The notes below the pieces were generated by a model that saw only the letters and a list, made by a program, of their open reading frames with translations, was not told the origin of the DNA and ran no database searches. 64,000 bases of DNA from Cymodocea nodosa (taxonomy: Eukaryota; Streptophyta; Magnoliopsida; Alismatales; Cymodoceaceae): contig CM072347.1 in assembly GCA_036874045.1 (NCBI GenBank), positions 3,350,501 through 3,414,500 on the forward strand, given 5' to 3'. Both the position numbers and the translations under genes were made by a program. Positions 6,915-52,496 of the stretch are shown here, piece by piece; within the stretch, counting starts at the first letter, position 1; each line of letters opens with the position of its first letter.

Positions 6915-9028
6915 TGTAAAGTATCAATTATGCATTTTATATATGTTAAGTCATGCATATTAAGGATTATAAGTCATCATTATATATGTTCTTATAAAAG
7001 ATTACATGAAAATCATATTTCTAGACATATGCATGAATTAGGGATTAAATAGTTGATAATGTACAAATTTATCTTTTATCAATTAAACACTTAGTCAATA
7101 GTCCTTGTATTAGACATGATTCTTATAATTCTTCAGTGTATAACCTTATATACATTGTATGATTGTCAAATCACTTAAATATGATGTTAAACTAAAGAAT
7201 TTTAGGTAATTCATGTATGCACATGTGAAGAAGTTGTGGACTAAAACCTTCCTAATTTGGCAACTTTCCATATATGGCAACTCATGCATGCATGTATACT
7301 ATATTTGCATCATATGATTTATATTCAATGTATATGTGCATCCAACTTGGTTTTGAGTTTTATAGGCCAATAAATCATAAAATCAAGGTGGATCAAAGAG
7401 GAAAAAATGTGGGCCATTGGATGTAACTTATTGGAGATCAAGCAACAATAGGCTAGACTATGTAAAGTGCTTGGCCACTCTAACCTAGGCTCTCTCTTTC
7501 TTCCAAATTCATGCACCATAGTGGCAGCCAGCCATCCTTCAAGTTTCAGCTCAAATCTGGTGTCTTCTCCTCTCTTCTCAAGGTTTGAACAAGCATTTCT
7601 CGAAGGGAAGGTGAGCTTGGGCGTCTTCCTCCCCCATTGGCGACCTCCTTCCTCTTTTTGGATGCAATCACAAGCATAAGGAGCTCCATGACTAGGATTT
7701 ATAGATGTTTGGTGGAGAGGAGCCATGCTTGGGTCTCCTTGAAGGGCTTTGGACGTGATCAACGAAGGGTGGTGTATAGGAAGCATCTCTCTTGAGGTGA
7801 AAAGCAAAAGTTGTGACCTTTGGAGCAAGCAAGAGGATGTGCAACCTCTTTTTCTTTAAGCAATCATATATGGTTCCCTTTGGATGTGATCTACAAGTGG
7901 TGATAGCCTTGTAGAGGAGCGGATTGAAGTAGTTCTTCATCAAACAAGGTGCAAATGTTTGAAGGAAAGTGGAAGGCTTAAAGGCATGTTTGAAAGGAGA
8001 GATCCTCATACTAGTCTTTGTATTTCTAAATTTTGATATGTATGAGTATGGTTTGATAATGTTGAAGAACGAAAACTTCATGCATGGATATTTGTTTTAA
8101 ATGTTTTAAATTAAATTTTATATATTGTTTTGATGTTGATTGATATAAAGAATGATTCATATCATGTGTATAGTGTGAATGAATGTGATTATATAATTTG
8201 TGAATGTATTTTTTCCGTTTCTTAGATTTTCAAAATGTTTGTAGCTTTTGTTCGAGTTGTATCTACTTGTTCATCACCTCTAAATCTCGTTTTTTGTTTT
8301 GTTTTGTAAGTATTATGAGTGTATAACAAGTTTACAAAGTTTTAGAATTTTTTAAAATGTTTTTTGAAGGTTTTCAATTTTATTTTCTAAAGTTCTCAAC
8401 GATTTTGAATCTTTGTCAAGTGCCAGTTTTGAGCTCGACGCTAGTGTAGTGCTTGCATTGTATGTTTTGTGTAATTTGGTTCTGTAAATTTTCCTTATTA
8501 GTGTAACGAATCTACTTTTAAGTGTGTTTATTTTGTAGCGTTTCATGAAGATTTGACGGAGATCTGATTTTTGCACCGAAGGTGTGTTTATGGAAAGTTT
8601 CCATAACTATCTGCGCCCCTTTCTTAAATAAGATATTGCCAGCGTTTTAAGTTGAGTTAATCCACAAAATTATTGTCATTTTAAAGATATTTCGAGTATC
8701 TTTCCAATCATTATTTATTCTGGATTTTTAAACGTTCAGGTTGGAAGTTATTAGAGTTAAAAGTTAGGCATAACTTCTATAATTTTAAGATTGATACTCA
8801 TTGATTTCTTGAATATCTTATGATAACTTAAGAATTACTTGGATTTTGGGGAAATCTTTTAAACCTTAATTGTGCTACGAAATTTGTATATTAATATCAA
8901 GTAATTAGAGTTTAATTATGAGTTAATTAGTATGGGTATTTTATTAGATAATCATTTTAATAAAATTAATTTAGATAAACTCCTTGTGGATTCGACTTGT
9001 ACTTACACATGCTTATTACAATGGGCAC
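6915..9028 (+). repeat. Solo LTR-B, left part (related Ty3 family)
   Basis: Begins TGTAAAG directly after CTCCT; the matching right end ...TTACA stands before a second CTCCT at 26168-26172, giving inverted TGTAA/TTACA termini and a 5-bp target duplication. No internal region is present, so it is a solo LTR (about 2.2 kb in total). Near its 3' end, TGTGGATTCGACTTGTACTTAC matches the conserved box of the main family's LTRs, so it belongs to a related lineage. Its upstream body shares little with them. Open stretches at 7325-7828 and 7692-8081 show no recognisable protein. It is split at 9028 by E1. Confidence 0.85.
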
Positions 9029-9439
9029 TTTTAGAATGAAAAAGTACATATTATTAACAGTTAAATGATGGTTAATTACATAATATTTAGCTTATCATAT
9101 GAGAATTAAGCCATTATGTTATAATTGCACTGTTATAAGCTTTAATTAAAGAATTTGCTTAAATTGGGGGAATTAATGTTAATTTAGTATATTTCTGAAC
9201 TATCGGTAAGTTGTAGGCTGTGAAATTCTTAAGTATCCAAATTTTCTAATATTTCAGACAGTTATGTTTAACATACTGAACATATTTCAAACGGTTATGT
9301 TTAACAGACTGAACATGTATCAGATAGTTGTGTTTAAACTACCGAATAGTTATGTTTTAAAAGAATATTTTATTATTTTCTGAAGTACATGTGTTGAAAC
9401 CATAATGCATGACTTAAGTGAACTTTCAGTGAGTTATCT

Positions 9440-9745
9440 ATAACTATTCGAAATTGCAGCTGAGCATCGGATAGTTAGACCTGTAACTCTCTAAAATGTT
9501 TCTTTTATTATTAAACTATTGTTAACACGTGTCGAGATCTGGTAGATTTACTTAAGTTATATATCGGTGAGCTATTTGTAACTATCCGAAATGCATCTGG
9601 GCATCGGATAGTTAAGTTTATAAGTATCCGAAATGCATCTAAGCATCAGATAGTTAAGTTTATAAGTATCTGAAATGCATTTGAGCATCAGATAGTTAAG
9701 TTGTAAGTATCCAAAATGCACCTGAACATCGGATAGTTAAATTTA
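9440..9745. repeat. Series of TAACTATCCG / CGGATAGTTA hairpins in the LTR
   Basis: At least four imperfect units, each of the form AACTATCCGAAATGCA-loop-TGCATCGGATAGTT, in which ATGC/GCAT extends the stem. The arms can pair over about 14 bases. Spacing between units is near 35-45 bases. The same series is in every full LTR of the family in the window. Confidence 0.75.
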
Positions 9746-9970
9746 TGCACGTGTTTTATAGTTAAATCAACGAAGAAAGTTCGTTGAGTTATCTGTAACT
9801 CCATGGACTATTTATTTTCTAATATGCCATTGTAGCAGTTGTAGAAACAAGACAGTTGGAAGAAAAACCACGATTGCACGTATCGCGTAGGGAGAAGAAA
9901 GCATCGTCGTTGATATGAATGAAGGAAATCCAACTAACCATTCAAGCAGAAGTAGTTACCACTAAAGAAA

Positions 9971-9978
9971 TATATAAG
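9971..9978 (+). promoter_or_regulatory. Likely LTR TATA box of E1
   Basis: TATATAAG within AAGAAATATATAAGAAAAAG. The same spot reads AATATAAAAG in the LTRs at 2779, 23929 and 26693. It is about 940 bases into the LTR, fitting a long U3. The transcription start would lie shortly downstream; its position is inferred. Confidence 0.5.
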
Positions 9979-11203
9979 AAAAAGAAGAAAAAGAAGTAAA
10001 GTGTGTGTGATCGATGGGTATGGCCAATGTGTACAGAGGAGGAGCACCGAACTTTCTGCAAGCAACGTCGACAATTCTTTGAAGTACCACACCAACCATC
10101 GTTACCACCACCATAATCACCAACCATCGGAGGTCTGTGAGGATACTTTTCTGATGTCGGGTCGATTCCGAGCCAAACACAGTGCTTGACAACCACTGTG
10201 AGGAGTGATCGCGTTGCGGGAAGGAAAGCCATTTTCACCAAGCGCCGACTCATATCTCAGGAGATCGTAAAGCTTCTAGCCTTGACTTCAAGTTGATGCC
10301 TATATGTTGAAGAGGAGATCATCTTGCAATTCTGGACTTGCGATTCTATAGGGAGAGGAGACAGAATTGTAAGTGGTTTAATTTTTAGTGGTGTAATCAC
10401 GTCACATATAGTGACGGAAGTATTTACTGTCGATTGAGATTACTTTACATTTCACCTTTCGCCCATTTTCATGTTCATATTAAAACAAAAATACCAAAAA
10501 CAACTTATATGTGTTTGTATTTTATATTTGAGTGTTGTAGTGTGATTAATGTTATCTTTGTCAGTGTTGTGATTGTTTTATGTTTGTTTTAGTTTTATAG
10601 TTTACTGAAATTGGTTTGTTCAAAAGACTTAAAGATTTTAATGGTTACTGTTTGAATTATTTGAATGTTAATATTGCTTAATGATAAATCTGTGTTTACT
10701 AACATTAAAGAGCTTAATTGATGTTATTTACAATCTGTGGAACCACCCAATGGTTGGCTGAATTCCTTTGTAAATAGCAGTATTAAAAAGAAAAGACAGG
10801 CTCGTGGAGTTAACTTAAGTCCATGACGTTAGTCCGTTGAGTTAGCCATAACTCAACGAACTTTGTCTGTTGAGTTAACTGTAATTCAACAGAGTACTTA
10901 TTAAAGATATAAATTTGATTGTTAACAAACGAACAATTTTCAATTCTTAAGAAATTCCCTGTGGGATCGACCTGTACTTGCACACTGATACAATAGACAC
11001 TGTGCACTTGCAGTTAAAGTACAAGTTGGAATTAATATCTAATTTATATTAAAGGTTGTTTGTTTACTTCTAAAAAAAAGAATAGGCATAAAGATAAATT
11101 AACTAAGTAAAAACAGAAGTTAACAAATCCAAGTTTTTCTGGTGTGTTGTTGGAGATCCAATCAGGTTTTCTAGTGTTGTACTGGGTAACTAAACAAGTT
11201 TTA

Positions 11204-11221
11204 TGGTGCCGTTGTCGGGGA
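11204..11221 (+). other. Primer-binding site of E1
   Basis: TGGTGCCGTTGTCGGGGA, seven bases after the LTR end. It is close to the TGGCGCCGTTGCCGGGGA motif that many Athila/Tat elements use, which pairs with the 3' end of a tRNA (tRNA-Asp in several families; established knowledge). The reading frame of the pol block begins about 100 bases downstream. Confidence 0.75.
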
Positions 11222-11322
11222 ATTGAATTGAATGGATTTGAATTGAATTAATATAAGCAACTATTAGAGCTGTTTCGTTTTAATAGCTAGAGTGTTGTGT
11301 GTTTTCTTCTGTAATTGAGAAT

Positions 11323-12440
11323 ATGGCATATGCTTATGCTCAAAGATTTTTGAAACATGTAGTTAGCATATGTGAATTTTGTAATTCTGAAGGACACGAC
11401 ATTTCTGACTGTTTGAAACTGAGACGTTTGCAGATGTTTAGATCCCATGAACAATAAATGAATTATCCTTAGTATAATAGAGCTGAGTATGAGAATCCTA
11501 TAGTTTACCCAACTGATGGTCAGTATAGAATGTGTAATATGTTGAGAGACACTGAAGTTTAAGATAGGTATGACAGACTGGAGCGTAGTATAGAGCAAAA
11601 CCTGGACAAACTAGAATACTTTATGTGTCACCAACAAGAAGTTAACCAATTAAACTATAAGGAAGCATATTCAGAACCTAAAAAGGATATAATTTATGAA
11701 ACTGAAAAAACCATAATGAAAATTGATCAAAAATTGAATGCAATGAGATTAGATGATTTGAAAAGAAAACTAAAAGCATTAGACGAATATACAATGAAAA
11801 TACAAGTTATGCAATAGGACAATGGAAATTATAATGTTATAAACCTACATGATTTGCAAAATATACAGCAAACAGAAAATATTAATGCAAGAGAATTTAA
11901 AGAATGCACTTTAAAACTAAAAACAATTGAAGATCATAATCACGAAAATGATATACAAAAACATCATGAGAGTAACGAAAATTTGGAAGATGTATGTGTA
12001 ACATTAAGATCTAGAACTAATATACCACCAAGAACTCAAAATGAAAATGATATGAAGGTGGATAAGAGTAAAAATCAAAATGATAACGAAAATGTAATAG
12101 TTGAAAATCTAAAAATCATTGAAGAACAATCTGAATCTACTAATGAAGCTAAAAATGATCAAACAAATCAATTGAAAGAAAAAGAATCTTTTAAATCGCA
12201 ATCTTTAGCACCCTATCCTGAAAGATTACAACAAACAATACCTGAAAAATAAGAAAAAATCAGAGAAATTTTTGAAAAAGTACAAGTTAACATTCCTTTG
12301 TTAGATCTATTGCAGAAAATGCCACATTGTGCTAAATTTCTGAAGGATTGGTGCACTAAGAAAAGAGAGTGAAAAGTTCTTTGAAAGGTCTTTTTAGCTG
12401 AGCAAAGTAGTTCTCTATTTCTACCACAAATTTCTAAAAG
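11323..12440 (+). pseudogene. Nucleocapsid-like start and linker of the pol block (E1)
   Basis: Begins with ATGGCATATGCTTATGC, conserved in element O (reverse, 30926). Residues about 17-30 form one CCHC zinc knuckle (CEFCNSEGHDISDC: C-x2-C-x4-H-x4-C). A long charged linker follows, rich in Lys, Glu and Asn and predicted helical (about 11600-12250), then APYPERLQQT and KVQVNIPLLDLLQKMPHCAK, matching the segment just before protease in Athila polyproteins. No capsid domain precedes the knuckle, although one normally does. Broken fossil. Confidence 0.8.
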
Positions 12441-13730
12441 GTTATCTTGTCTTGGAATCCTTGTTATATCATGCACTATAGGAAATACCATTCTAGAAAG
12501 AACCTTAATAGACTTAGGTGCATGTATAAATGTTATGCCAAGTGATATATTTGCATCCTTAGGATTAGAAGGCTTAACTCCTACTAGTATAATTATTCAA
12601 TTAGCTGATAGAAGTATAAGATACCCTAGAGGAAAAATAGAGGATGTCTTAATTAAAATCAAAAACTTTATATATCCTATTGATATTGTAATTTTGGATT
12701 CCCAACAAATTAAGCATAAAAATAGTGATACATCTTTAATTTTGGGAATGCCATTTTTAGCAACATCAGGGGCTGTTATAAATTGTAAAACTGGAGTAAT
12801 AAAGTTAGCATATGGTAATGAGGATATTCAATTAAATATTTTCAAACCAGAAAGGTTTGAGGAGTTAGAAATGTCCTTACATACCATAGACTTTTTAGAG
12901 GATGAAAGAGATATGTTAGATGATGTGATTCAGGAAGAATTTAATAGGCAAATCAATTCTAAAACTTTAGAGAAAAGTGAAAGCATAAACATAGAAGGAG
13001 ATCTAGAAGAGATTAATTTAGAAAATGATGATGTTCAATTAGGAGCTCTAGCTTCTGAAAAGCAACATTTAGAATTAAAACCTTTACCTCCTGAATTAAC
13101 ATATATATTTCTGGAAGAGAAACGAACCTGTCCAATCATTATTGCTTCAGATTTAAAAGAGGATCAAATAGCTAAATTAAAAGATGTAGTAAAAAGTTAT
13201 AAAGAAGCAATAGGATGGACTATGACTGATATATAAGGGTTAAGTTCAACTTTATGTTGTCACCACATATATTTAGAAGAGAATGGTAAACCTGTTAGAA
13301 TTCCTTAGAGGAGATTAAATCCAAACCTTAAAGAAGTAGTCAGGAAAGAAATAGTGAAATGGTTAGATAATGACATAATTTATCCGATTTCTGATAGCTC
13401 GTGGGTTAGTCCAATCCATGTAGTTCCTAAGAAATCAGGATTAACAGTTATTAGGAATGAAAGTCAAGACTTGATACCTACTAGAATTCAACTAGGCTGG
13501 AGAGTATGTATAGACTATAGAAAGCTGAATGCTGTGACTAGGAAAGATCATTTTCCCTTACCTTTTATAGATCAAATGCTGGAAAGATTAGCAGGGCAAT
13601 AATATTTTCGTTTCCTAGATGGGTATTCAGGTTATAATTAAATTTCAGTAGCATTAGAAGATCAAGAAAAAATAACTTTCACCTGTCCTAAAATTTAGAC
13701 GTAATATTAAAACATTGTGTGGAAAGAAAT
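12441..13730 (+). pseudogene. Protease and N-terminal reverse transcriptase (E1)
   Basis: Retropepsin-like region: TLIDLGACINVMPSDIF (about 12503-12553) is the Athila form of the catalytic Asp motif; QLADRSIRYPRG and LGMPFLATSGAVI follow. RT begins after AIGWTMTDI, with WVSPIHVVPKK, RVCIDYRKLNAVTRKDHF and PLPFIDQMLERLAG (13400-13602), a near match to Athila RT. FLDGYSGYN follows. These enzymes process the polyprotein and copy the RNA genome into DNA. The best open stretches are 12535-13236 and 13354-13602. Broken fossil. Confidence 0.9.
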
Positions 13731-14400
13731 CTGGTGTTAAATTGGGGAAAATGTCACTTCATGGTTAAACAAGGAATAGTCTTAGGGTATGTTGTTTCTA
13801 AGAAAGGGTTGGAAGTAGATAAAGCTAAATAGAAGTAATTTCTAATCTACTAGAACCTAAATCAGTAAAAGATATTAGATCATTTCTAGGACATGTTGGT
13901 TTTTATCGAAGATTTATTAAGGACTTTAGCAAGATAGCTAGACCTTTAACTAATCTATTAAAAGATGTTCCATTTAACTTTGATAAAAATTGCAAGGAAG
14001 CATTTTTTAGACTTAAAACTAGCTTAATTTCAACTCCTATAATTCAAGCACCTGATTGAAACCATTCATTTGAATTAATGTGCGATGCAGTGTTGGGACA
14101 GAAGATAGAAAAATCTCCTTGAGTGATTTATTATGCAAGCAAAACCTTAAATGATGCTCAAGTTAATTACACAACTACTGAAAAAGAATTATTAGCTGTT
14201 GTGTTTGCTTTAGAAAAATTTAGATCATATCTGATTGGAGCTAAAGTAATAGTATACACAGATCATTCAGCTCTAAAACATCTAATAAAGAAAAAAGAGA
14301 CTAAACCTAGATTGATCCGATGGATTTTATTATTACAAGAATTTGATATAGAAATTAAAGAAAAAAAAGTTGTGAGAATGTAGTAGCAGATTATTTATCA
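13731..14400 (+). pseudogene. RT C-terminal part and RNase H (E1)
   Basis: RT thumb/connection motifs GIVLGYVVSKKGLEVDKAK and RSFLGHVGFYRRFIKDFSKI (about 13775-13935) lead into an Athila-type RNase [48 protein letters not shown] and [11 protein letters not shown]. This domain removes the RNA strand during reverse transcription. The open stretch is 14123-14383. Broken fossil. Confidence 0.9.
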
Positions 14401-15780
14401 AGATTACAAATAGAAAAATCAAATATTGAAATTAAGGATAATTTTCCTGATGAACAATTAATGACCATCAACACAATACCTTGGTATGCAGACATAGTTA
14501 ACTATTTAGTTACTGGTTTAACACCTAAGGATTGGAATAGACAGGATAAGAAATTATTTTTCTCGAGAGTAAAATATTACTATTGGGAAGACCCATACTT
14601 ATTTAATAAATGTCCTGATCTGGTTTTAAGGAGGTGTGTTCCAGAAACTAAATATTTGAGCATATTGTCTTTTTGTCATGACCAAGTTTGTGGAGGGCAT
14701 TTTGGTTCAGGGAAAACTGTTGCAAAAATTCTGCAATGTGGATTTTATTGGCCAACACTATTCAAAGATGCTCATAAATATTGGTTAAGTTGTTTAAGAT
14801 GTCAACAAATAGGAAGAATATCAAAGAGGAATATGATGCCTCTTAATCCTATTGTTGAGGTTGAAATCTTTGATGTGTGGGGAATAGATTTTATGGGTCC
14901 ATTTCCTATGTCTAATCAATTTAATTATATATTGTTGGGGGTGGATTATGTATCTAAATGGATAGAAGTTATTCCTACAAAAACTAATGACAACAAAGTG
15001 GTAATACAATTTATAAGAGCTAATATATTTGTCAGATTTGGAATACCTAAAGCTATTATCAGTGATAGAGGAACTCATTTTTGTAATAGAAGTTTTGAAG
15101 CCTTAATGAAGAAATATGGAGTAAACCACAAACTTGCAACATCATATCATCTGCAAACAAGTGGACAAGTAGAAAGTGCTAACAAACAAATTAAGTTAAT
15201 CTTAGAAAAAGTAGTAAATCCTACTAGAACAGATTGAGCTAATAGATTGATAGATGCACTTTGGGCTTATAGAACTGCTTATAAAACAAGCTTAGGTATG
15301 TCACCTTTTAGGCTAGTATATGAAAAAAGTTGTCATTTACTAATTGAACTAGAACATAAAGCTTATTGGGCATTAAAAACTTTGAACACTAATTTAAATC
15401 AAGCTATTGAAAATAGAAAAATGCAATCAATTGAATTAGAAGAATTTAGAAATGAAGCTTATTCGAAGACTGTAAGAGAAAAAGAGAAAATGAAATTCTG
15501 GCATGATAGAAAAATTATTCCAAAAAGCTTTGAAATAGGATAAGAAGTATATCTTTAGATGGCTAGACTCCATAACCATCTAGGAAAATTAAGATCTAGA
15601 TGGGCAGGACCTTACATAGTTCGAAATATTTATTCTTATGGAGCTATTGAAATTGAAAATCCTAAAAATCAAAATATATTTAAAGTAAATGGACAAAGAC
15701 TTAAACTTATTCTGAAAACACCAAAAAGCTCATTTGGAATTATAGATGTTAGAGTAGAGGACTACTCGAGCTTTACTTAG
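14401..15780 (+). pseudogene. Integrase (E1)
   Basis: An HHCC zinc-binding region (CHDQVCGGHFGSGKT, then SCLRCQQIGR; about 14670-14820) is followed by the DDE core: WGIDFMGPFP, DYVSKWIEVIP, ISDRGTHFCN and YHLQTSGQVE (14875-15180). The C-terminal part, GKLRSRWAGPYIV and FKVNGQRLK (15559-15740), is the usual Athila end of pol, with no chromodomain. It would insert the DNA copy into the host genome. Open stretches are 14461-15237, 15247-15543 and 15559-15780. Broken fossil. Confidence 0.92.
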
Positions 15781-16341
15781 TAAGAAATCAGTTTTTATGT
15801 TTATATATATATATATATATAAATATAAAATATAAAAATCATTGCGGTTCAACCGACTGGATCCATCGGTATGACCGGAACATAAAAAAATATGTATATT
15901 AATTTTCAGAAAAAAATGTTGGTTTTACCGAAACATAGTATTGGTTCAATTGAAAAAAAAATTAGGTTTGACTGAAACATAGTATTAGTTAAACCAATAA
16001 AAAATAGAAAAACTGTTATCTTAAGTATTTTTATTATTATATCTGTTTGTACAGGAAGTCTGTTGAGTTACGCTTAACTCAACGAGCTTACTCCGTTGAG
16101 TCTTGAGTTAGTCAACGAGCTTATTCCATTGAGTTAACTGTACTCAACGGAGTACTGTAGCTAAGACTACAGATGAGAGAGCAATAGTTGGTTCGGAAAA
16201 TGACCCGATTACTTGCCTAAACTTAGGGCTTATTTAAACTAAGACCTAGGGTTTTGGGGCATTATCCGGTAAATCATTTAGAATCTAGAACAGTAGAAAT
16301 CAGAGCGATTCGTGCTATTGTGTAACTCTACGATAAGGAAG
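15781..16341 (+). other. Spacer between pol and ORF-X (E1)
   Basis: A short (TA)n run sits at about 15803-15822. From 15845 to 16010 there are repeated GGTT(C/T)(A/G)ACCG-type units. Then 16056-16155 holds GTTGAGTTA inverted repeats (for example CTGTTGAGTTACGCTTAACT and CCATTGAGTTAACTGTACTC). No coding signal. Confidence 0.7.
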
Positions 16342-18552
16342 ATGACACCTGAGTTATGGGAAGATGCAATTGACATAGCACAGTTTCTGAAGGAATCAAA
16401 GGAATGGCACATACGGCAAAAGATTCAGAATACGACAAGAGAAAAAGAGTTATGGAAGGTAAAATCTGAACTTTTTAGATTAAGAAGAATGTTAGTAGAT
16501 TGTGGTATACAAATACCCCAAATAATGGAGACACGAATCAGAGTAGCAACAGAAATTGCAATTAGTAAAGAAAAAAAAATCAGGCTGAACAATGAAGTAG
16601 CCTTAGAGCTAATCAAGCGCAAGGCCAGATTATGGTTCAAAAGGCGCATTACTGGTCGTGGAAGTTGGGAAATATGGTAGCAGCAATAAGCAGGAGAACG
16701 GGAGGAACCAACTGCTGAAAGACCTGTTCTTGAGGAACAACAGTTAGGACCTCCAGTTCAGCCAATAGAGCCATTGCCACGAGTAGCATTTGCTTGGCCG
16801 AGAATTGATAAAGAAGAGAAAGAGTTTACTAGCTTAGTCAAAACAACAAGAGACCAAGGTGATAACGAAGAAATAGTTACTACTATGGCACATATTTTAT
16901 ATGATGCCATTAAGAGAAGAAGGGCCGAAGAAAAGTTGAGGGCCCAATTCAAAATTAAGGTTGAACAGCATCAGGCAGCAGCTAAATCAAGTGCTGCAAG
17001 AGAAGCTGAAGCTAGTCCTTCGAGACCAGTAATTATTGGAAAAATTAAACAAGAAGAGCTAGTACTTGTGGCTTGAAGTCCTATAGAGCCTACTTTTTTA
17101 GATTTAATATCAGATGATGAAGAGGAAGAACAAGCACAATTAATCACACGAAGGAAAGGAAAAGAGATAGTGCCTGACTATCAAAAAGAGATTAAATCTG
17201 AGGTGCCAATTTCAATAGGGCCTGTAGAGTCAATTTTTATAAACCTGCTATCCGATTCTGAGGAGGAGCAGGAGCAGCAGCAACAGGAGCAAAGAGAAGA
17301 AGAAAAACATGTTGAAATTAGTCTGCAGCCTGTACAAGAAGAAAGAACAGAAATTAGGGTAGAAACTGAATTGCTCGTGACTCCATCCCAAGCTACCACA
17401 AAATCAGAAAGAACAGTGATAGAGCAGATTGGTAGTCAGGAGGAAAAAGAAAGAACAGAAAATGAAGAAGAAGCTGAACGAAGCCATTTGGACAAAAATG
17501 ACTTTACAGATACCACTGAAGAGCAAGAAACTCTTCAGCAATTTATGGAAAGAATTCAAGACAGAGTGGAGAGTTTTGTCGGCTCACCACCACAGACAGA
17601 AGCAGAAGCAAAAATACAGGAATCTGTAAAGAATGTTCAAGTGCAGACTATGGTAGAGGAAGATCAAGAACAAACCCCTCTAGAACAACAAAGTCACATT
17701 CCTGACCTGACTGAAACAACAGTTCTGAATGAGGTACATTTTTGGAGTTAGGAAGTTTATCATAAATATCAAGAGATTAGGGGTTATGATATTATTTGCA
17801 GTAGACCAGTAAATTGGGATGGAATACAAGAAATCAAAGAATTATTTGAATTCCAAGGTCTATTGAATTTTATTTATCAAGAAAGAGGGCATGTAGTATA
17901 TGAGAATCTAGTGCCCTGTTTTTATGCAAATTTAAGAGAAGGAGAAGGAAAATTAATTTCCAATGTGGAGGAAGCTGATGTATAGATAACACTAGAGCTT
18001 CTCCACAACATTTTTGGATTAAAGAATGAAGGGTAGGAAATTTTTGAAAGTACAACTGCTGTTGAATGGACAGAGCAGGAAATCAAGGACAGTTTGGCTA
18101 TCAATCTTGGTGTGCCTTTATTAAACAGACTGAAACATTTAAATGGTAAAACACACATGGTAGCCAACATTTTGATTAAGAATGTCTATCAACGACAAGG
18201 CCATGACATAGAATTGAGTCAATTTGTCAAATGGGCCACGTTTGCAGTTGTAAATAGAATTCAAATAAATTGGACTGTAGTTTTTATCTCCAAGCTGTAA
18301 ATAGTAAAGAAGAAATTGTTTTATGGAGATTTGATTCCACTACTGATGGTGGATTGTATTGATTTCACGAAATGGGCATAAAAAAGGATCAGATCAAGAA
18401 CCATTTCAGTGAAAGAATACAGAAATTTTGTAGCTGCAGAGATAGCTGTACCTTCTAGAGGAATTACAGGAGGTATAGAAAGAATTAATCAATTAGAACT
18501 TCAATTAGAAAAACTCTAGAAGGACGTAGATGAACTTAGGAATAGAGACTAA
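16342..18552 (+). pseudogene. ORF-X: acidic, coiled-coil-like protein with plant-transposon-protein type C-terminal domain (E1)
   Basis: About 735 codons, in the place where Athila elements carry their env-like third ORF. The start is chosen at the first ATG (MTPELWEDAIDIAQFLKE). The N-terminal third is helical and basic (KVKSELFRLRRML). The middle is highly acidic and Gln/Glu-rich (SDSEEEQEQQQQEQREEEKH). The last ~270 codons hold NWDGIQEIKELFEFQGL, ENLVPCFYANLREGEG, TLELLHNIFGL and MVANILIKNVYQRQGHDIEL, a pattern like Pfam's putative plant transposon protein domain (PF20167, from memory). No signal peptide or membrane segment is seen, so an envelope role is not supported. Partial copies lie at 63007-64000, 5623-6909 and 26173-26692. 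Broken in several places. Confidence 0.75.
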
Positions 18553-19559
18553 ATTGTATTGTTCATTTACTTGTATAGAATTGTATGATGTATTTGTAAT
18601 GCAAATTGATTCATATTAATGAATATAAATTTTTCAGATGTACTTTTCATACGTGTTTTGAATGTGAAATGAATGGAATTTATTGAATATTCTATAAATT
18701 GTGGAACTTTATGAATGAATGTTTAATAGATTTACAATTTGCTGAATGACAGGATAGATGCTTGAAAATTTCTGCATGTTGCAAGGTAAAATGTAAATTC
18801 TGCATAACATAAAATGACCTGCAAGTTAAATATTTATATAATGTTCAGATTTAAACAAATTTTGATTAGAATGATGCATTAATGACATAGATTTAACTTT
18901 TTTTCAGTTAGTAGAATGAAGAAGAAAAAAAAAGTAGAGAGGTACTTATGAGGAGTAAATTTAGAAGTTGCTAAGTGTTAACTCAACGAAGTAAGTTTGT
19001 TGAGTTAAGCTTAACTCCATGAGGTCAGTAATATAATATAAGGTCACTCCGTTGAGTTATCTGTAACTCAACAAAGTTAGCCCATGGAGTTAGCAACAGT
19101 AATCGACTGTGTTCCATTGAGTTATCTATAACTTAACGAGGTTAGTTTGTGGATTAAGTAGAACAGTTATTCTTTTAACCACGAACGAAACTTCATCGGT
19201 TTAGCGGTTACGAAAATTTGAAATTAGTAGTGGTACACGTACCTATAAAAATAGGAACCACGATGCACGTTGCAAGACACGTTCTTGCAACGAGATTTAT
19301 TCACTTTATGGATGTGCATTATATATATAAACAGAATGTTATTTACGAGTTACCAACACTTTTAAAAGAAAGGAAAAGCGTTGGAGGAACTGGAAGGAGA
19401 AGCAGCTGATTCGACTTCATCCGTCAACAAATATTTATTGAATGGAAAGCTTTAGATTGGTATGTAATTAATCATCTATTATTTATTTATGAGCACATGG
19501 ACTTGTTCTCTAAGCACTAAACGATTAGTAAGAACACTTACCTAGGAATTTTCATCACA
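18553..19559 (+). other. Spacer between ORF-X and capsid block (E1)
   Basis: Non-coding and A+T-rich to 18970, then GTTGAGTTA inverted repeats (18977-19150), then a short stretch conserved in M (19218-19460 against 62300-62080, reverse). A GTATGT at 19459 and a TTTTCATCACAG ending at 19559 are both matched in M (donor GTATGT, acceptor TTTTCATTGCAG), which looks like a ~100-base intron just before the capsid block. The splicing is inferred, not shown. Confidence 0.6.
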
Positions 19560-20829
19560 GAGGCGTACTGAAACATTTTCTGAACTGGACTTTAACAAAA
19601 TTCTTTGGGGTGTAGCTAACCTTTCTTTAAAAGAGAACGTAAAGATGGCTGCTCCAGTAGAAAAACCATTAGGAGAAATTCTGTATCTTGAATTAGTTGA
19701 TGAACCTTCATGTATTCGATTGCCAAACTTTGAGGGAGATAGGTTTGAACTGAAATCTAATTATATTAGTCAATTGCCACATTTTCATGGATTAGAAAGA
19801 GAGGATGCCTATTATTTCCTTAGAGAATTTAATGAAGTTTGTCAAATGATGAAAATACCGAAATTGAGTATAGATGCTATTAAACTTAGATATATCCCTT
19901 TTTCTTTAAAAGACAGCTAAGAGATGGTTATATACTCTGTCGCCTGATTCAATTTCTACGTGGATTGAATTTTACTTTATTTTTCTGGAAAAATATTATC
20001 CAACACATCAAACGATTAAAAAGAAAAAAGAAATATTAATGTGTAGCCAAAATAGGGTGAATCATTTTGGAAATATTTTGAAAGATTTAAAGATTTACTG
20101 ACTCAATGTCCACATCATGCAATGAGTAAAGCACAATTAGTAGGTATAATTTATGAAGTCATAGATGTTTCAACAAAATCTTTATTAGAATCTACTTGTT
20201 AAAATGAATTTTTAAAGTTATGTAGTGAACAAGCATGGGTATATTTAGAAAACTTTGCAAAAAGAACTACATAGTGGGAAAACTCAGCTGAAGCTATTGT
20301 AGATAAAAGAATATTGCCAAGAGGAATGCATGAAATAGATTTAAGTAATTTGTTTGAAGTGAAATTAACTGAATTAATAAAGAAAATAGAAGAGTTATCA
20401 TTAAATCAAAAGCTAGCAGAAAAGAATGCAAACATAAATGATTTAGATATTATTTATGCTAAAAACCAGAGAGATAACTTGGGAAATTCTTATAATTCTA
20501 ATTGGAAAAATCACTCGAATTTATCTTGGAGAAAAAACAATTTCCAAGGAGGAGAAAATATAAATGAGAAAAATATAAGTTATGAAGCATTAATTGAATA
20601 AGGATCTAGAATAGAGAAATTAGAAAAGATAATCTAACAATTAAACAATCGTTTAGATTTTGTATTTGGAAATGCTGTAATTCAAAATCAGAATAGAAAT
20701 ATACTACTTAGACAGAAGGAACCAATGGAAGTTAGATCTACTGGAGGATTGCCAATACAAGCAGTACCTAACTCTGTCAATAGAACTGTTAATGAAATTG
20801 ATACCTCTTCTGGGAGGGTAGCTGAATGA
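19560..20829 (+). pseudogene. Gag capsid block, placed downstream of pol (E1)
   Basis: Athila-type capsid (Retrotrans_gag family). Motifs in order: CIRLPNFEGDRFELKSNYIS, FHGLEREDAYYFLREFNEVC and RYIPFSLKDS (open 19645-19920), a YYPTHQTIKKKKE region, a CPHHAMSK region, then KKIEELSLNQKLAEKNANIN, YNSNWKNHSNLSWRKNN (the Athila NPGWRNHPNFSW motif) and GGLPIQAVPN near the end. Gag forms the particle that packages the RNA. It ends 190 bases before the F-box ATG. In ordinary Athila elements this block comes first after the primer site. Here it follows ORF-X, as it does in M. Broken fossil. Confidence 0.9.
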
Positions 20830-21018
20830 AGTAGCATATCTGAAGCAACTATCTGTATATATATATTTTTATTTATAGTTAATAGTATCGTAGAGTTAGT
20901 CCTTAACTCAACGAACTTAGTCCGTTGAGTTATGCCTTAACTCCACGAGAGTGTGCAGTGGTTATGTTAATTTTTTTGTCTCTGCTTGATTTTTGTTTGT
21001 GTTATACGGAATCGACAA
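20830..21018 (+). repeat. Spacer with GTTGAGTTA hairpins before the F-box block (E1)
   Basis: CGTAGAGTTAGTCCTTAACT and CCGTTGAGTTATGCCTTAAC form two short inverted repeats (20890-20950). A pyrimidine-rich stretch (TTTTTTTGTCTCTGC...TTGTTTGTGTTATA) follows just before the ATG. In M the same place reads TTTGTGTTTTATAG, like a 3' splice site. Confidence 0.65.
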
Positions 21019-22155
21019 ATGGAATTGATGCAATTACTGTTGGATGCACTAAGGGAAGTACTGAGTAATTTATCAGCTAAAGATCTGTGCAGGCTGTGTT
21101 GTGTATCAAAGGAAATTAAAGACTATATTGAAGAAAAATATTTTTAGGGACTACAAGCTGCAAAAATGACTAAGATTATAGATGGATTCATATGGAGGTC
21201 ATTTAATCGTAGTTCAATTAACCATGAATATTTGGCTATGGAAGTAACTACTGGAATTCCACCCAATACATTAGAAGGAATAGATCATATTATGGGGATA
21301 GATGAAAGATTAATCATATACAGGACGAGACCAATGTATGCAAGTTTATTACCTGATATTTTGATAAGAAATCTTATAACAAGAGAAGAATGGTATATAG
21401 GAAGACCTAATAGATATGAAGTACCAACTGTAAATTGTGGATCGGCTTTAATATTTTCTGATAAAAATTCTACAATTCCTAAAAAATTATATTATTGGAG
21501 ACCTACAGGAAATTGGGGTGAAGATTTACACTTAAGTGTGTATAATTTTCTAAATAGATCTTGGAATGAAAATATTATGATATATCTAGGCCATAAATCA
21601 TTAATTAACCAAACACATATCATACTTGATGGATATGTATATCTAGTCACAGATATATCAATAGCATTTGGATCTGATTTATACATAGTGAGCATAGACA
21701 GTTATGATGAATATATAGAAATTTTACTTATATCGAGAGAAATAGCTAAACCACCATCTACAAAATTTAATAAAATTCAAATAGGAATTTGGTATAATGA
21801 AGATGATGATTCTACTTTATGTCTAATAAGATGGTAGGATGAATTGATGAAAATTCAAATATGGATTATGAAAGACATTAATGAATGGAAGTGGGAAGAG
21901 GAATATATTGAAATAGATGTAGAAATAGAAACTGCTACATTACCTTGGAACCGAAAAAGATCCCTTTCTGCATTTCATATCATTAATGGTAATACACTTG
22001 TATTTGGAATTTATAATATATTACACGTTTACAAATTAAGAAGGAACAAGAACTGCATTAAAACAGAATTAATAGCAAGAAGAACTATGCCTAAAAAGTT
22101 TGCTTGGACTGACACGTTTATTCCATTTGTTTCTACTTTTTAATCATGTTCTTAA
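21019..22155 (+). pseudogene. F-box/FBA-type gene carried inside E1
   Basis: About 378 codons from ATGGAATTGATGCAATTAC. The N-terminal F-box (residues ~5-45) keeps SNLSAKDLCRLCCVSKEIKD. Then come an FBA-like propeller region with IRNLITREEWYIGRPNRYE, YNFLNRSWNENIMIYLG, IILDGYVYLVTDIS and LYIVSIDSYDEYIEIL, and a C-terminal WIMKDINEWKWEEEYIEID. Size and layout fit plant F-box proteins with an F-box-associated domain; such proteins are SCF ubiquitin-ligase substrate receptors (family knowledge). The substrate is unknown. It lies inside the LTRs, between capsid and polypurine tract, and is repeated in C1 and M. The main open stretches are 21166-21837 and 21844-22143. Broken, with a few interruptions. 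Confidence 0.88.
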
Positions 22156-23920
22156 GCTATGATTTTGTGTGTTTAATGTTTTGTGTATTCTACATTTATT
22201 TATTTTTTTTAAAAAAGAGAATTTTTTTTTAGTTTTCATTTTTATTTTATAAAAGAAAAAAAAAACAAAATATCAATCAAGTTTGTTGGTATTTGTTCTG
22301 GGAAACCAACTGGCTTGCTTGTGAGCCATCAGAGGTATAGGAACCTGGGTTCCACACAAGACACTGATTTATCAATATCTGTTAAATGTTATTTTGTTTT
22401 ATATTCTGCTTTTATCTGTGAATGAAAAGTTTTTCAGAATCAAAAATCGAAATATGCAGAAGGAGATACAAACGAAACAAGGTATGTAATTGATTACTTA
22501 TCCTGAATTTTAAATCAAAGAAACTGTATTCATGCCTACTACAATTACTGTATTTATTGTCAAATCTTTTACATTGAGGACAATGCAAAATGTAGGCATG
22601 GGGGGAGTTAATTAAAGTAACACCCATATAAGTTTGTTAATTAAAGGAATTAAAATGGTACTGCAAAGTTTTGTGGAAATTGAAAATTTTTATGAACTTG
22701 CTGTAACTATCCGATAATTGAGACGGTAAAATTTTTATAAACTGTAACTGCTTGAATGTTATATTTTGAAGGTTATATAAGATGCTATAGAATTTACTAT
22801 TTATGCAAATCTTGATATAGTATCTTATGTTTTTTCTAAATTTCATGAGTTTAATAGTTTCACGATTTTAAAATTAAATCAGAATGCTTAATGAAAAATC
22901 AATAAATTATCTGAAGTCCTGAAGGAGCTACGATGTGAATTCTAGATTAAATGAAACACATATGATTAAAGATACATTTAATTTGATTGATTGAACTTGT
23001 AGAATGATTTATGTGTAGATCTTATTGAACTACAGAAAAAGTATGAGCTTATTGTTATGGATTCATATTTTCAGTAAATGATAGAAGTAGGACTATATGA
23101 GATTGGTGTTTTACTGTATCTGTATTAATGAAATACGTACATATACAATATGTGATTAATGTTTTGTTTTGTGTTTGTATTTTGATTGAAAAAAAAAGAG
23201 AGAAAAAGAGAGAGGAAACTTTGAGAGTTTATTGACTTGTTTGATCACAAGCCTTTTGTACTTGAGCAGATAGGTATGTAACGATTATTGACCTGAAAAA
23301 GGACTTGAAATCTGGCAACCTAAGATCCTGATCAGATCTGGGATTGTTGACTGAAAGCTCGTTACATGGGTACATTAGAAAGCTCCTGTATGATTCAAGC
23401 TTGTTAAATTAACTTTTAAAGTACAAAAAAAAAATATACATATACTGTTATGAAAAGATACAAGTGTTTTGTGAAATATAGATATCTTATGAATCGAGTA
23501 TATTTTCTGTTATCTAGAATTGCTGAAATATGAATCTAGAATTGACTTTTGAAGTTGTTTTAATGGAGATACAATTCTTTATTCTACTTGTCTTAATTAG
23601 ATTGAATTGGATTGTACTTTGATTCGTATGTTGTTGAAATTTCTTCTAGAAATCTTATTGGAAAATTCAGGCTGACAGATGATGAAAAGAAGAACAAACG
23701 ATAATATAATTAACACCTAGGTGATGATGATATACTTTGTATGTACTTTGCATATATTCTAAGTATATTTGCAGGTTGATTACTGAAACATACAGAATAT
23801 CTATATAATAATTCTTATGCTGAATAGAAGAAAAAAAGAAAGAAGAATTAATTTTAGCACTTTTAGAAAGACCAATTAATTAGATTTTAGTTTGCTAAGG
23901 GACTAGCAAAAATTAGGTAT
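22156..23920 (+). other. 3' non-coding region of E1
   Basis: Conserved in C1 and M but without coding signal. It holds a short segment bounded by TTTTTCAG (22436) and AAGGTATGT (22480), conserved in all three copies and resembling a small exon, the internal polypurine-like motif, and a purine-rich GAAAAAAAAAGAGAGAAAAAG tract (about 23187-23218). Confidence 0.65.
22571..22606 (+). promoter_or_regulatory. Internal polypurine-like motif of E1
   Basis: ACATTGAGGACAATGCAAAA followed by CATGGGGGGAG. Same module and place as in C1 and M. It lies about 1.3 kb upstream of the tract that directly abuts the 3' LTR. Confidence 0.55.
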
Positions 23921-23928
23921 GAAGGAAG
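23921..23928 (+). other. Polypurine tract of E1
   Basis: GAAGGAAG directly before the 3' LTR start TGTTTAGAATG. In M the same position reads GGGGGAAG. The 40 bases before it (GCTAAGGGACTAGCAAAAAT) are conserved in both. It primes plus-strand DNA synthesis in this family. Confidence 0.75.
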
Positions 23929-26091
23929 TGTTTAGAATGAAAAAGTACATATTATTAACAGTTAAATGATGGTTAATTGCATAATATTTAGCTTATCATA
24001 TGAGAATTAAGCCATTATGTTATAATTTCATTGTTATAAGATTTAATTAAAAAATTTGCTTAAATTAGGGGAATTAATGTTAATTTAGTATATTTTTGAA
24101 CTGTCAGTAAGTTGCAGGTTGTGAAATCCTTAAGTATCCGAATTTTCTGATATTTCGGGCAGTTATGTTTAACATACCGAACATATTTTAGACAGTTATG
24201 TTTAATAGACCGAACATGTATCAGATAGTTATGTTTAAACTGCCGAACAATTATATTTTAAAACAATATTTTATTTTTTTCTAAAGTACATGTGTCGAAA
24301 CCATAATGCATGACTTAAGTGAACTTTCGATGAGTTATCTATAATTATCCGAAATTACAGCTGAGCATCGGATAGTTAGACTTGTAACTCTTTGAAATGT
24401 TTCTTTTATTATTAAACTGATGTTGACACATGTCGAGATCTGGTAGATTTAATTAAGTTATATATCGGTGAGTTATTTGTAACTATCTGAAATGCATTTG
24501 GGCATCGAATAGTTAAGTTTATAAATATCTGAAATGCATCTAAGCATCGGATAGTTAAGTTTATAAGTATCCGAAATGCATTTGAGCATCGAATAGTTAA
24601 GTTGTAAGTATCCGAAATGCACCTGAGCATTGGATAGTTAAATTTATGCATGTGTTTTATAGTTAAATCAACGAAGAAAGTCCGTTGAGTTATCTGTAAC
24701 TCCACAGACTATTTATTTTCTAATATGCCACTGTAGCGGTTGCAGAAACAAGACAATTGGAAGAAAAATCACGATTGCACGTATCACACAGGGAGAAGAA
24801 AGCATCGTTGTTGATATGAATGAAGGAAATCCAACTGACCATTCAAGCAGAAGCAGTTACCACTGAAGAAATATAAAAGAAAAAGAAGTAAAGTGTGTGT
24901 GATCGATGGGTATGGCCAATGTGTACAGAGGAGGAGCACTGAGCTTTCTGTAGGCAGCGTCGGTAATTCTCTGAAGTACCACACCAACCATCATTACCAC
25001 CACTATAATCACTAACCATCGGAGGTCTGTGAGGATACTTTCCTATTGTCGGGTTTATTTCGGGCCAAACACAGTGCCTGACAACCATTGTGAGGAGTGG
25101 TTGCGTCGCGAAAAGGGAAGCCATTTTCACCAAGCACCAACTCATATCTCAGGAGATCGTCAAACTTCTAGCCTTGGCTTTGGGTTGATGCTTATATGCT
25201 GAAGAGGAGATCATCTTGCAATTCTGGACTCGCGTTTCTATAGGGAGAGGAGACAGAATTGTAAGTGGTTTAATTTTCAGTGGTGTAATCGTGTTGCATG
25301 TAGTGACAGAAGTATTTACTATCAATTGAGATTACTTTACATTTCACCTTTCGCCCATTTCCATGTTCGTATTAAAACAAAAATACCAAAAACAACTTAT
25401 ATGTGTTTGTATTTTGTATTTGAGTGTTGTATCGTGATTAATGTTATCTTTGTCAGTGTTATGATTGTTTTATGTTTGTTTTAGTTTTACAGTTTACTGA
25501 AATTGGTTTGTTCAAAAGACTTAAAGATTTTAATGGTTACTATTTGAATTATCTGAATGTTAGTATTGCTTAATTATAAATTTGTGTTTACTAACATTAA
25601 AGAGCTTAATTGATGTTATTTACAATTTGTGGAACCGCCTAATGATTGGCTAAATTCCTCTGTAAATAGCAGTATTAAAAAGAAAAGACAGGCTTATGGA
25701 GTTAACTTAAGTCCACAAGATTAGTCCGTTGAGTTAGCCATAACTCAACGAACTTTGTCTGTTGAGTTAACTGTAATTCAACGGAGGACTTATTAAAGAT
25801 ATAAATTTGATTGTTAACAAACAAATAGTTCTCAATTCTTAAGCAATTCCTTATGGGATCGACCTGTACTTACACACTGATACAATAGACACTGTGCACT
25901 TGCAGTTAAAGTACAAATTGGAATTAACATCTAATTTGTATTAAAGGTTGTTTGTTTACTTCTAAAAAAAAAAAGAATAGGCATAAAGATAAATTAACTA
26001 AGTAAAAACAGAAGTTAACAAATCCAAGTATTTTTAGTCCGTTGTTGGAGATCCAATCAGGTTTTCTGGTGTTGTGCTGGGTAACCAAACA
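23929..26091 (+). repeat. 3' LTR of E1 (2163 bp)
   Basis: TGTTTAGAATG...AACCAAACA, with short inverted ends TGTTTA/AAACA. It is followed by target duplication GGCAC (26092-26096). It contains the CGGATAGTTA hairpins (24340-24640), TATA box AATATAAAAG near 24866 and the GATCGACCTGTACTTAC box near 25858. Confidence 0.93.
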
Positions 26092-26096
26092 GGCAC

Positions 26097-34195: not shown

Positions 34196-34831
34196 GGGCT
34201 AAAATATAAATATCTAAAATACATATGAAGATTAGATCAATATAAGCATCTTAGGTACGAGATATAAGGTTCAAATTAAAAGAATTTTAGATATGAAATA
34301 TAAATATCTAAAATACATGTGAAAATTAGATTAAACTAAATGTATTAGATATAAGATATAAAATATCTAAATATTAGAAATCGATATCTAAGAAATGAAA
34401 ATTCAAATACTTTAGATAGAAAATAAAAGTATTTGAAATAAAATCAAATATCTTAGGTATTAAAATATAAAAATATCTTAGAAGTTACAAACTTCATTGG
34501 GTTTGCCCTAAATCTAACAGAGTTAGTTCAAAATATCTAAGAAATTAAAATCAAAATATTTTAGATACAAAATATAAATATCTAAAATGAAAGTAAGTAT
34601 CTTAGATATAGAAAAGTAAAATATCTAAGAAGTTAGAAATAATTTGTGGATTTATATCCTAAAACATAATGGGCGCAGTTTGTTTGTTTCTTTCTTTGTT
34701 TTATTATTAATATCATTATTTTTCCTTTTTTTATCATTAATTTTTTATCTGATATTATTATTATTATTGTTATTTGAGCTTTTTTATCCTCAACATTTTC
34801 ATACACTCAAAAGCTTTTCAACTTAAATATG
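34196..34831. repeat. A+T-rich stretch with diverged ATATCTAA units
   Basis: From 34205 to about 34640, variants of AAATATCTAAAATA and TATCTTAGATAT recur every 20-60 bases, forming small palindromes. 34641-34831 is pyrimidine/T-rich. No gene signal. Confidence 0.5.
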
Positions 34832-50561: not shown

Positions 50562-52494
50562 TGTTTAATTGGGAAAACTTGTTTGATTTGTTTTTATGCT
50601 TATATTAATAAATTCTTTTAGAAGTAAACAAACAACTTTTCATACAAATTAGATATTAAGTTCAATTTATATTTTTAACTGCAAGTGCACAGTGTATATT
50701 GTATTTGTGTGCAAGTACAGGTCGATCCCATAGAGATTGAGTAAGAATTATGTACTATTTCGATTTTTATATTAGAGTTTATATATGTTTAGTTAAGCAC
50801 TTCGTTGAGTTACTATTTACTCAACAGACTTAGTTCGTGGAGTTACAACTAACTTAACAAACTAAATTCGTGGACTTAAGTTAACTCCATGAGTCTACCT
50901 TTCTAGTTAAAGATGCTATTCATAGAGGAATTCGACCATCCATTAGGCGATTCCACAAAATATAAATAACATCAATTAAGCTTTTTAATGTTAGTTAATC
51001 TGAGATTTGTCATTAAGCAACACTAATATTCAGATATTTCAAACAGTAACCATTAACATTTTTAAGTATACTAGACGAATCAATTTCAGTAAACAATAAA
51101 ACTATTTTCTATTTTCTGAATCTAATAAGCATAAACATTCACACTACTGATAATGATAACATTAATCATGATACAAAACAAACAATACAACACTTTAATA
51201 CTAAATGTAAACATAGATAATTAGTTATTTTTGGTATTTTTATTTTGATATGTTCCTAAAGATGAGCGAAAAGTGAAATGTAAAAATCTCTATCGACAAT
51301 AAAAACTTCCATCACTACATGCGACACGATTATACCATTGAAATTAATTACTTAAAATCTTGCCTCTTCTCCTTATAGAATTGCTAACCAAGACTTGTAA
51401 GTTGATCTCCTCTTTAATACACTGGCATCAACCCGAAATCAAGGCGAGAAGTTTTACGATCTCCTAAGATATGAGTCGGTACTTGATGAAAATAACTTTC
51501 CTTTCTGCAACGTGATTACTCCTCATAGTGATTGTTAGTTACCGTATTTGGCTCGGAATTGATCCAACGTCCAGAAAGTATCCTCATAGACCTTCGATGG
51601 TTGATGATTTTGGTGGTGTTGTAGAGCTTCAGGGAACTTCCGATGCTTCTTGCAATTAGCATGGTCCTCCACCTCACACATCCTTTTCTTCATCTTTCTC
51701 CTCTTCTTATATTTCTTTTAATAGTAACTGTTTCTACTTAAATGATCAGTTAGATTTCCTTCATTCATATCAATGATGGTGATTTCTTCTTCATTCCATG
51801 AGTTAATTCCTATATGATACGTGCAATTGTGGCTTTCCTTCGAATTTCCTATTTTTGTAATTGCTACGGTAGCATGCTAGAAAATAAATGGTCCATGGAG
51901 TTCGTGTAACTCAACAGACTTACTTCGTTGAGTTAACTATAAAACATGTGCAATAAAGAAATAACTTAACGAGTTCAGATGTTTCGGATAGTTACAACTA
52001 TAAGTATACGAAACTTATATGCATTTCAGATAGTTAGCACCTAACCTTCAGAAAGATAACTTAAGTCAAGTTTTCAAATTGTGACATGTGTCCTTAGTCA
52101 GTTTTATGATAAAAAGGTATTTCAGATACTTGCAAACCTAACCATTCGATGTTTAGACACATTTCAGATAGTTAACGTCTAACTTACCGAAAATCCACTT
52201 AAGTCATGTATTAAGGTTACAACATGTGTACTTTAGGAATAATAAAATGTTCTTTAAGCGTTTAAAATATAACTGTCTGAAATAATAAACAATTCAGATA
52301 CTTAAGAATTACAATGCTTGTAACTCACCAATAGTGCAAAAATGTTTTTAATTAACATTAATTCCTTGAAATTATGCAAATTCTTTCATTAAAGCATATA
52401 ATAGTGCAATTATAGCATAATGGCTTAATTCTTTATGATAAGCTAAATATTATACAATTAACTATTAATATTATGCACTTTTTCATTCTAAACA
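50562..52494 (-). repeat. Solo LTR of the F-box Athila-like family
   Basis: About 1.93 kb on the - strand: TGTTTAGAATGAAAAAGTGC at its start (52494) and AATTAAACA at its end (50562). The flanks are ACATT (50557-50561) and ATATT (52495-52499), a 5-bp duplication with one mismatch. It carries the GATCGACCTGTACTTGCACA box near 50725 and CGGATAGTTA-type hairpins. No internal region. Confidence 0.85.
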
Positions 52495-52496
52495 AT

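Follow-up and report, generated by a model that had tools for sequence, protein, structure and literature searches.

An F-box gene probably conserved as a standard 3' gene in an abundant Ty3/gypsy family of LTR retrotransposons of Cymodocea nodosa

In Cymodocea nodosa, comparison of genomic copies indicates that members of an abundant Ty3/gypsy family of LTR retrotransposons regularly have a conserved F-box gene in their 3' part. The gene seems to have persisted across deep divergence, to have spread to hundreds of copies or more, to have been placed behind an intron and to have been maintained by selection. F-box proteins serve cells in tagging other proteins for degradation, and most host-like genes picked up by LTR retrotransposons do not last long. 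The family offers a case, open to testing, of a retrotransposon that may exploit protein degradation by the host; it also cautions that many of the F-box genes counted in such genomes may belong to transposons.

The window (the whole stretch of DNA analysed, 64,000 nucleotides) contains E1, one 17-kb LTR element at positions 9029-26091, with the target-site duplication (TSD) GGCAC on both sides. Its parts follow the order LTR, primer-binding site (PBS), zinc knuckle, protease, reverse transcriptase (RT), RNase H, integrase, ORFx, capsid, F-box, polypurine tract (PPT) and LTR, and are located as follows.

9024-9028, no strand: left target-site duplication GGCAC, matching 26092-26096
9029-11196, forward strand: 5' LTR, with 2160 aligned bases and a K2P distance of 0.084 from the 3' LTR
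11204-11221, forward strand: primer-binding site TGGTGCCGTTGTCGGGGA; its counterpart in copy M is TGGCGCCATTGCCGGGGA
11371-11412, forward strand: CCHC zinc knuckle (CEFCNSEGHDISDC) at the pol-side start, upstream of the protease; weak Pfam zf-CCHC_2 match, E 0.14
12535-13236, forward strand: aspartyl protease region, with a sub-threshold RVP_2 match (E 0.04)
13309-14380, forward strand: broken RT-RNase H region, of which 14123-14380 matches RT_RNaseH (PF17917) at E 9e-28
14461-15237, forward strand: integrase; rve E 6e-15, Integrase_H2C2 E 2e-12
16312-18551, forward strand: ORFx, broken; two relatives give sub-threshold matches to PF20167 ('putative plant transposon protein')
19319-19329, forward strand: TATA-like box, a putative promoter element about 130 nt ahead of the splice donor
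19460-21009, forward strand: GT-AG intron in which the capsid gene lies; its donor is GTATGT, and in E1 the acceptor has mutated to CGG
19645-20829, forward strand: capsid (gag) frame, broken in E1; the PF03732 match (E 4.5e-12) comes from the open part of M
21019-22143, forward strand: F-box gene, 374 codons plus stop
23916-23928, forward strand: polypurine tract adjoining the 3' LTR; GGTATGAAGGAAG in E1, GGTATGGGGGAAG in M and in most of 16 other copies compared
23929-26091, forward strand: 3' LTR, TGTTTAG...CAAACA
26092-26096, no strand: right target-site duplication GGCAC, pairing with the left one

As expected of a Ty3/gypsy element, an LTR pair (2.16 kb each in E1), TSD, PBS and PPT are found in E1 and in M, and an LTR pair with TSD is also present in a further copy, L018. 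The pol order of protease, RT, RNase H and integrase is found in E1 from a weak RVP_2 match together with RT_RNaseH, Integrase_H2C2 and rve; the two RT pieces gave no match when scanned against Pfam. Capsid and nucleocapsid ahead of pol, a further mark of the group, are not seen: gag is split, with the zinc knuckle (11371-11412) lying 5' with pol, before the protease, and the capsid (19645-20829) lying 3' of the integrase. As a correction to an earlier reading of the window made from its letters alone (the sequence-only reading), the capsid of E1 does not stand in front of pol. The PBS of E1 and M is presumably of the tRNA-Asp/Athila-Tat type, and the tentative label 'Athila' for the family derives from this resemblance. 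Athila elements have an env-like gene between pol and the 3' LTR; the suggestion that the F-box gene takes that position fits as to place, but the capsid gene has shifted there too. ORFx has acidic stretches, and its weak likeness to PF20167 concerns the C-terminal part of two relatives.

Another observation concerns the motif ACTCAACGGA, which, with its complement, occurs 18 times in E1 (at most one mismatch) against a mean of 0.37 in 30 shuffles. The sites lie at 9780, 10833-10866, 16059-16142, 18981-19113, 20906-20921, 24681 and 25725-25776, clustered in both LTRs and ahead of ORFx, capsid and F-box, forming a repeated palindromic cassette that precedes each 3' gene and is perhaps a regulatory element.

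Two other copies, M and C1, carry the gene in the window.

59403-60527, reverse strand: F-box gene of M, with two internal stops; acceptor TTTATAG present; PF00646 40.2 bits (cut-off 20.5)
60720-61586, reverse strand: capsid part of M, 288 open codons, PF03732
55370-57639, reverse strand: 3' LTR of M; the 5' LTR lies just beyond the window (L037, 2411-4437)
459-1529 (approximately), forward strand: F-box gene of C1, lacking about the first 17 codons, with four internal stops

The claim that the three copies hold the same F-box gene was borne out (E1 21019-22143, M 59403-60527, C1 about 459-1529), and every one of them is interrupted by in-frame stops; those of E1 are two TAG codons, at codons 43 and 273. 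M runs past the window end, where L037 supplies its 5' LTR and PBS; its pol is deleted while ORFx, capsid and F-box remain, its TSD reads AGTGA/AGTGG (one mismatch) and its LTRs differ by a K2P of 0.046. In C1 a deletion fuses the capsid to the F-box near codon 17-19, and the start of the F-box gene and the splice acceptor are missing for this reason; the truncated piece scores 15.2 bits against PF00646, below the cut-off of 20.5. The proposed placement of the gene between capsid and PPT, inside the LTRs, holds for E1 and M, whereas in C1 a second deletion has taken out the PPT and the 5' part falls outside the window. A PPT does follow the F-box gene as had been stated, but it directly abuts the LTR (23916-23928 in E1), and about 1.8 kb of non-coding DNA separates it from the gene. 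Short tandem duplications were also seen in the window at 52494-52769 and 34384-34639 (about 139 bp at 97% and about 108 bp at 81%, respectively).

The genome searched amounts to 374.6 Mb. An F-box profile search gave 4219 first-look candidates, of which the best 150 were scored, and a protein search, starting from 7046 first-look candidates, yielded at least 108 scored matches; both counts are lower bounds because the best candidates alone were scored. Of the 108 scored matches, 107 were near full length and one ended at residue 366, which excludes a chance F-box frame; 15 were free of stops and 93 contained them. For closer comparison, 20 loci were picked for long open frames (the first set), eight mostly high-ranked loci were hand-picked regardless of open frame, and four from the profile search (L004, L006, L007 and L008) were added, giving 32 distinct loci once duplicate entries are allowed for (L001-L003 are L029-L031, L005 is L009, and L038 contains L008). 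Every sampled locus was found via its F-box, so the stability of the gene was measured only among F-box carriers.

The family F-box gene was present in 31 of the 32 distinct loci, in some of them interrupted or truncated, the exception being a host F-box gene (L009). A capsid gene lay upstream in 27 of the 31 family loci, and the remaining four are the spliced copies described below. The first set includes 19 family loci; among these, the 3' non-coding block followed the F-box gene in all, a PPT-LTR boundary lay 3' of it in 16, and an integrase lay upstream in eight; in five of these eight the integrase also preceded a capsid, while the other three are spliced copies without capsid. No integrase was found in the stretch compared in the other 11. 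Two bystander fragments caught by chance, near 9.4 kb in L016 and near 9.3 kb in L022, both have the F-box beside a capsid. As a side observation, different pol or ORFx parts have been lost from L016, L017, L018, L019, L025, L027 and L037 (M) with the F-box present; all but M were found by their F-box. F-box genes are numerous in plants, which could recommend the view that we are looking at a host multigene family hit by retrotransposon insertions. That view is already contradicted and has a negligible probability, as LTR pairs with TSDs enclose the gene in E1, M and L018 and the PPT-LTR boundary follows it in those 16 first-set loci.

The F-box gene lies behind what its genomic copies demonstrate, at the level of DNA, to be an intron with conserved splice sites and with genomic copies of the spliced form. 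The donor GTATGT is found 1.55 kb upstream of the F-box, ahead of the capsid, and a pyrimidine tract with AG precedes the F-box ATG in most unspliced copies. Where unspliced copies could be aligned, the donor GT is kept in all 16 and the acceptor AG in 22 of 28, the acceptor of E1 being among the six mutated. Four of the 19 first-set copies (L012, L017, L022 and L023) lack exactly the GT-AG interval that holds the capsid, and the spliced junction was found at 206 genomic places with at most two mismatches against none for a reversed control; the 100 places listed have no mismatch. In a tree built from the F-box and non-coding DNA, L012 groups with L019 and L025 (support 0.99), and L017, L022 and L023 fall in a separate young clade that includes unspliced members. 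The presence of the junction at so many places and in two sampled clades implies that transcripts joined to the F-box gene by splicing were copied back into DNA. At least two separate events of reverse transcription of such RNA would be the simplest account, and recombination could likewise have shifted the junction between clades. A 3' gene carried on spliced RNA, as in retroviruses, is in this way read from DNA, through genomic copies of the spliced form.

The 206 places might instead go back to a chance deletion, or a small number of them, that transposition then multiplied, since three of the four sampled spliced copies belong to one young clade and could share a single event, and recombination could have carried the junction to L012. 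We consider this very improbable in view of edges that fall exactly on GT and AG and include a pyrimidine tract, the placement of L012 in another well-supported clade and the preservation of the splice sites in most unspliced copies, with the donor present even in the divergent copy L038. Two other intervals considered as introns, from 16167/16178 to 18495 (absent from L017, L022, L024 and L027) and from near 11250 to 15814 in the leader (absent from L018 and L027), have no clear GT-AG edges and were set aside as ordinary deletions.

Two kinds of transcript start may feed this intron. L012 retains integrase and ORFx upstream, which suggests that it arose by splicing of an RNA started at the LTR. 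The TATA-like box about 130 nt ahead of the donor in E1 has a similar AT box in all four other copies compared, which suggests an internal promoter, by way of which the F-box protein might come to be translated. An in-frame ATG in exon 1, which would add nine residues after splicing, is present in the four spliced copies and in 12 of the 16 unspliced copies aligned across it; it is not a general feature, being missing from L011, L014, L038 and the second copy within L018.

The association with the family is old. A divergent subfamily (L002/L030 and L008/L038) has an F-box protein only about 60% identical to the others, and L038, with 61% amino acid identity in the F-box protein and about 70% nucleotide identity in the LTR, retains the order ORFx, capsid, F-box, non-coding block and LTR, with a 2.3-kb insert inside the F-box gene. 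Distances between capsids and between F-box genes are correlated (r 0.90; none of 2000 permutations as high; 26 pairs and 324 comparisons, from 25 distinct copies as L002 and L030 are one locus), which establishes, as far as divergence can be read from present copies, a long linkage of the two genes. F-box dS exceeds 0.8 against the divergent subfamily, while the LTR K2P of E1, M and L018 is only 0.046-0.084, and the gene therefore did not spread in one recent burst. The description of the gene as a stable member of the family and not a single chance capture is upheld by its identical place in this subfamily, by the capsid correlation and by the constraint described next.

Selection was assessed by pairwise NG86 dN/dS, in which pairs are not independent. 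With rising dS, F-box dN/dS was 0.64 (dS below 0.1, 52 pairs), 0.50 (130 pairs), 0.39 (170), 0.37 (92), 0.33 (60; dS 0.5-0.8) and 0.23 (116; dS above 0.8), in a table that counted one locus twice (L002 and L030). Without duplicate and short entries the values were 0.64, 0.50, 0.38, 0.36, 0.33 and 0.23, the last bin now holding 29 pairs, all with L008; the bin above 0.8 represents one divergent subfamily throughout (two loci, about 180 codons or less). The capsid gave 0.67, 0.42, 0.32, 0.23 and 0.40 over its bins. Neutral simulation under the family's own non-coding spectrum gave 0.74-0.78, and the non-coding block read as codons gave 0.70, 0.66, 0.63 and 0.48 over four bins; as this control also drops with dS, part of the F-box trend is a binning effect. 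When pairs were binned by non-coding distance, dN/dS fell from 0.57 to 0.39 for the whole F-box gene; with the F-box domain left out, the fall was from 0.76 to 0.44. Eight hand-picked deep pairs were compared from residue 46 onward. Seven of them lay under the 5% neutral limit, with no more than 7 of 300 neutral simulations reaching so low a value; for the eighth, with C1, the count was 23 of 300. By region, dN/dS was 0.16 in the F-box domain against 0.35-0.48 elsewhere, which is unusable as proof because the loci were chosen by F-box score.

A neutral passenger, meaning a gene that was captured and multiplied along with the element but at no time under selection, would suit several of these figures: recent pairs are near neutral (0.64), stops are found in 93 of the 108 scored copies and the non-coding control drops somewhat as well. 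The three window copies are near neutral among themselves (0.56, 0.64 and 0.77), for which reason they could not have settled the question alone. We nevertheless hold such a passenger to be improbable, given the seven deep pairs under the neutral limit, the preserved splice sites, the full length of 107 of the 108 scored copies and the retention of the gene in a subfamily at about 60% identity. Deep comparisons show silent and replacement changes to be unequal. Neither of the two outcomes that would have refuted the sequence-only reading, equal accumulation of such changes or a single recent burst, was observed. The deep pairs thus document past purifying selection, as recorded in the genomic copies, and suggest that natural selection kept the F-box gene for a long period; such upkeep means that the gene probably does something for the element.

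The protein itself can be placed in part. PF00646 scored above cut-off in all seven intact copies (41-43 bits against 20.5), and about 330 residues follow the F-box domain. Of the F-box/FBA identity first assigned, the F-box half is secure, whereas FBA_1 (PF07734) remained below cut-off in four of the seven (13.4-14.8 bits against 21.1, E 0.03-0.07) and had no match in three. Residues of the F-box domain are largely conserved over 39 aligned entries, from copies chosen by F-box score. AlphaFold models from window-only alignments had a pLDDT of 29.7 for the E1 piece and 40.7 for the M piece, the latter with three N-terminal helices at the F-box at modest confidence. From its protein family, the F-box protein likely functions through an SCF complex. 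The proposed capture from a host gene found no backing: a protein database search with an intact F-box protein (379 aa) gave 1039 candidates, none at E 0.01 or below, a PDB sequence search returned nothing useful, and the sole host F-box gene compared, the F-box/kelch-like gene in L009, had no meaningful similarity to the element gene. That host gene (L009, 4023-5300, reverse strand) resembles, we presume, HAWAIIAN SKIRT.

The reading that we favour, and regard as rather probable on these sequence comparisons, is a conserved 3' F-box gene alternating with the capsid through an intron and encoding an SCF receptor that would act on some target to the benefit of the element. Transcription would start at the LTR or at the internal TATA box near 19.32 kb. 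Transcripts left unspliced would give capsid and those spliced 19459^21010 the F-box protein, so that one donor would switch between two products. The F-box protein would bind host SKP1, and its C-terminal FBA-like half would recruit a target for ubiquitination, the likeliest type of target being a host factor that limits the element, such as a silencing component. Alternatively, the protein may serve the life cycle of the element itself and not act on a host factor, for example by breaking down capsid or pol or setting their amounts, with splicing as the switch from particle making to particle regulation. In favour of that alternative, capsid and F-box would be alternative products of one intron and their distances correlate, but mere linkage would also yield the correlation, and we rate this alternative as unlikely. 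A bolder form of the favoured reading, which we hold to be doubtful, would be a lineage in which the capsid has moved behind pol and one donor switches between capsid and a ubiquitin-ligase receptor that destroys a host restriction or silencing factor; such a receptor would be to the retrotransposon what accessory proteins are to lentiviruses and P0 is to poleroviruses.

In titles and abstract openings of the open-licence literature we found no account of an LTR retrotransposon family with a conserved F-box gene of its own, and the term 'F-box' does not occur in the main texts of PMC9289625, PMC7264820, PMC3726574 and PMC11963269. Among the nearest cases is that of orchid Ty3/gypsy elements carrying an AlkB m6A demethylase ORF, from a study that screened 121 angiosperm genomes for non-canonical domains (PMC9289625). 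There too a plant gypsy lineage has fixed an extra host-like domain, proposed to serve in host-TE conflict; the orchid protein is a demethylase, whereas ours is a candidate ubiquitin-ligase receptor, and F-box is not named in the main text (PMC9289625). Env-like and additional ORFs between pol and the 3' LTR are described for other plant elements, with splicing reported in barley Bagy2 (PMC7264820, PMC11963269). Position and splicing are shared with the present family, but those ORFs encode env-like, antisense or unknown proteins, in contrast to an F-box gene and a relocated capsid (PMC7264820, PMC11963269). In Thlaspi arvense, TaChr6G576 is an F-box family gene with LTR flanks, termed an 'LTR-gene' (PMC8764390). 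It is a precedent for an LTR-flanked F-box gene, though a single one, later tandemly duplicated, which the portions available count as a retroduplicated host gene and do not describe as a conserved family gene (PMC8764390).

VANC proteins of VANDAL transposons counter silencing, and their targets often form tandem repeats (PMC5735166). They are TE-encoded anti-silencing proteins, an effect that is conjecture for the F-box protein, and they act by sequence-specific loss of DNA methylation, with no ubiquitin route named in the parts of that source available (PMC5735166). Polerovirus P0 and nanovirus Clink are F-box proteins that engage SKP1 or a homologue, and P0 suppresses silencing and destabilises AGO1 (PMC3588083). 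These are virus genes, and P0 is without typical C-terminal repeats, unlike the element protein with its roughly 330 residues after the F-box; the likeness lies in an F-box protein encoded by a parasite, for which engagement of SKP1 is here predicted (PMC3588083).
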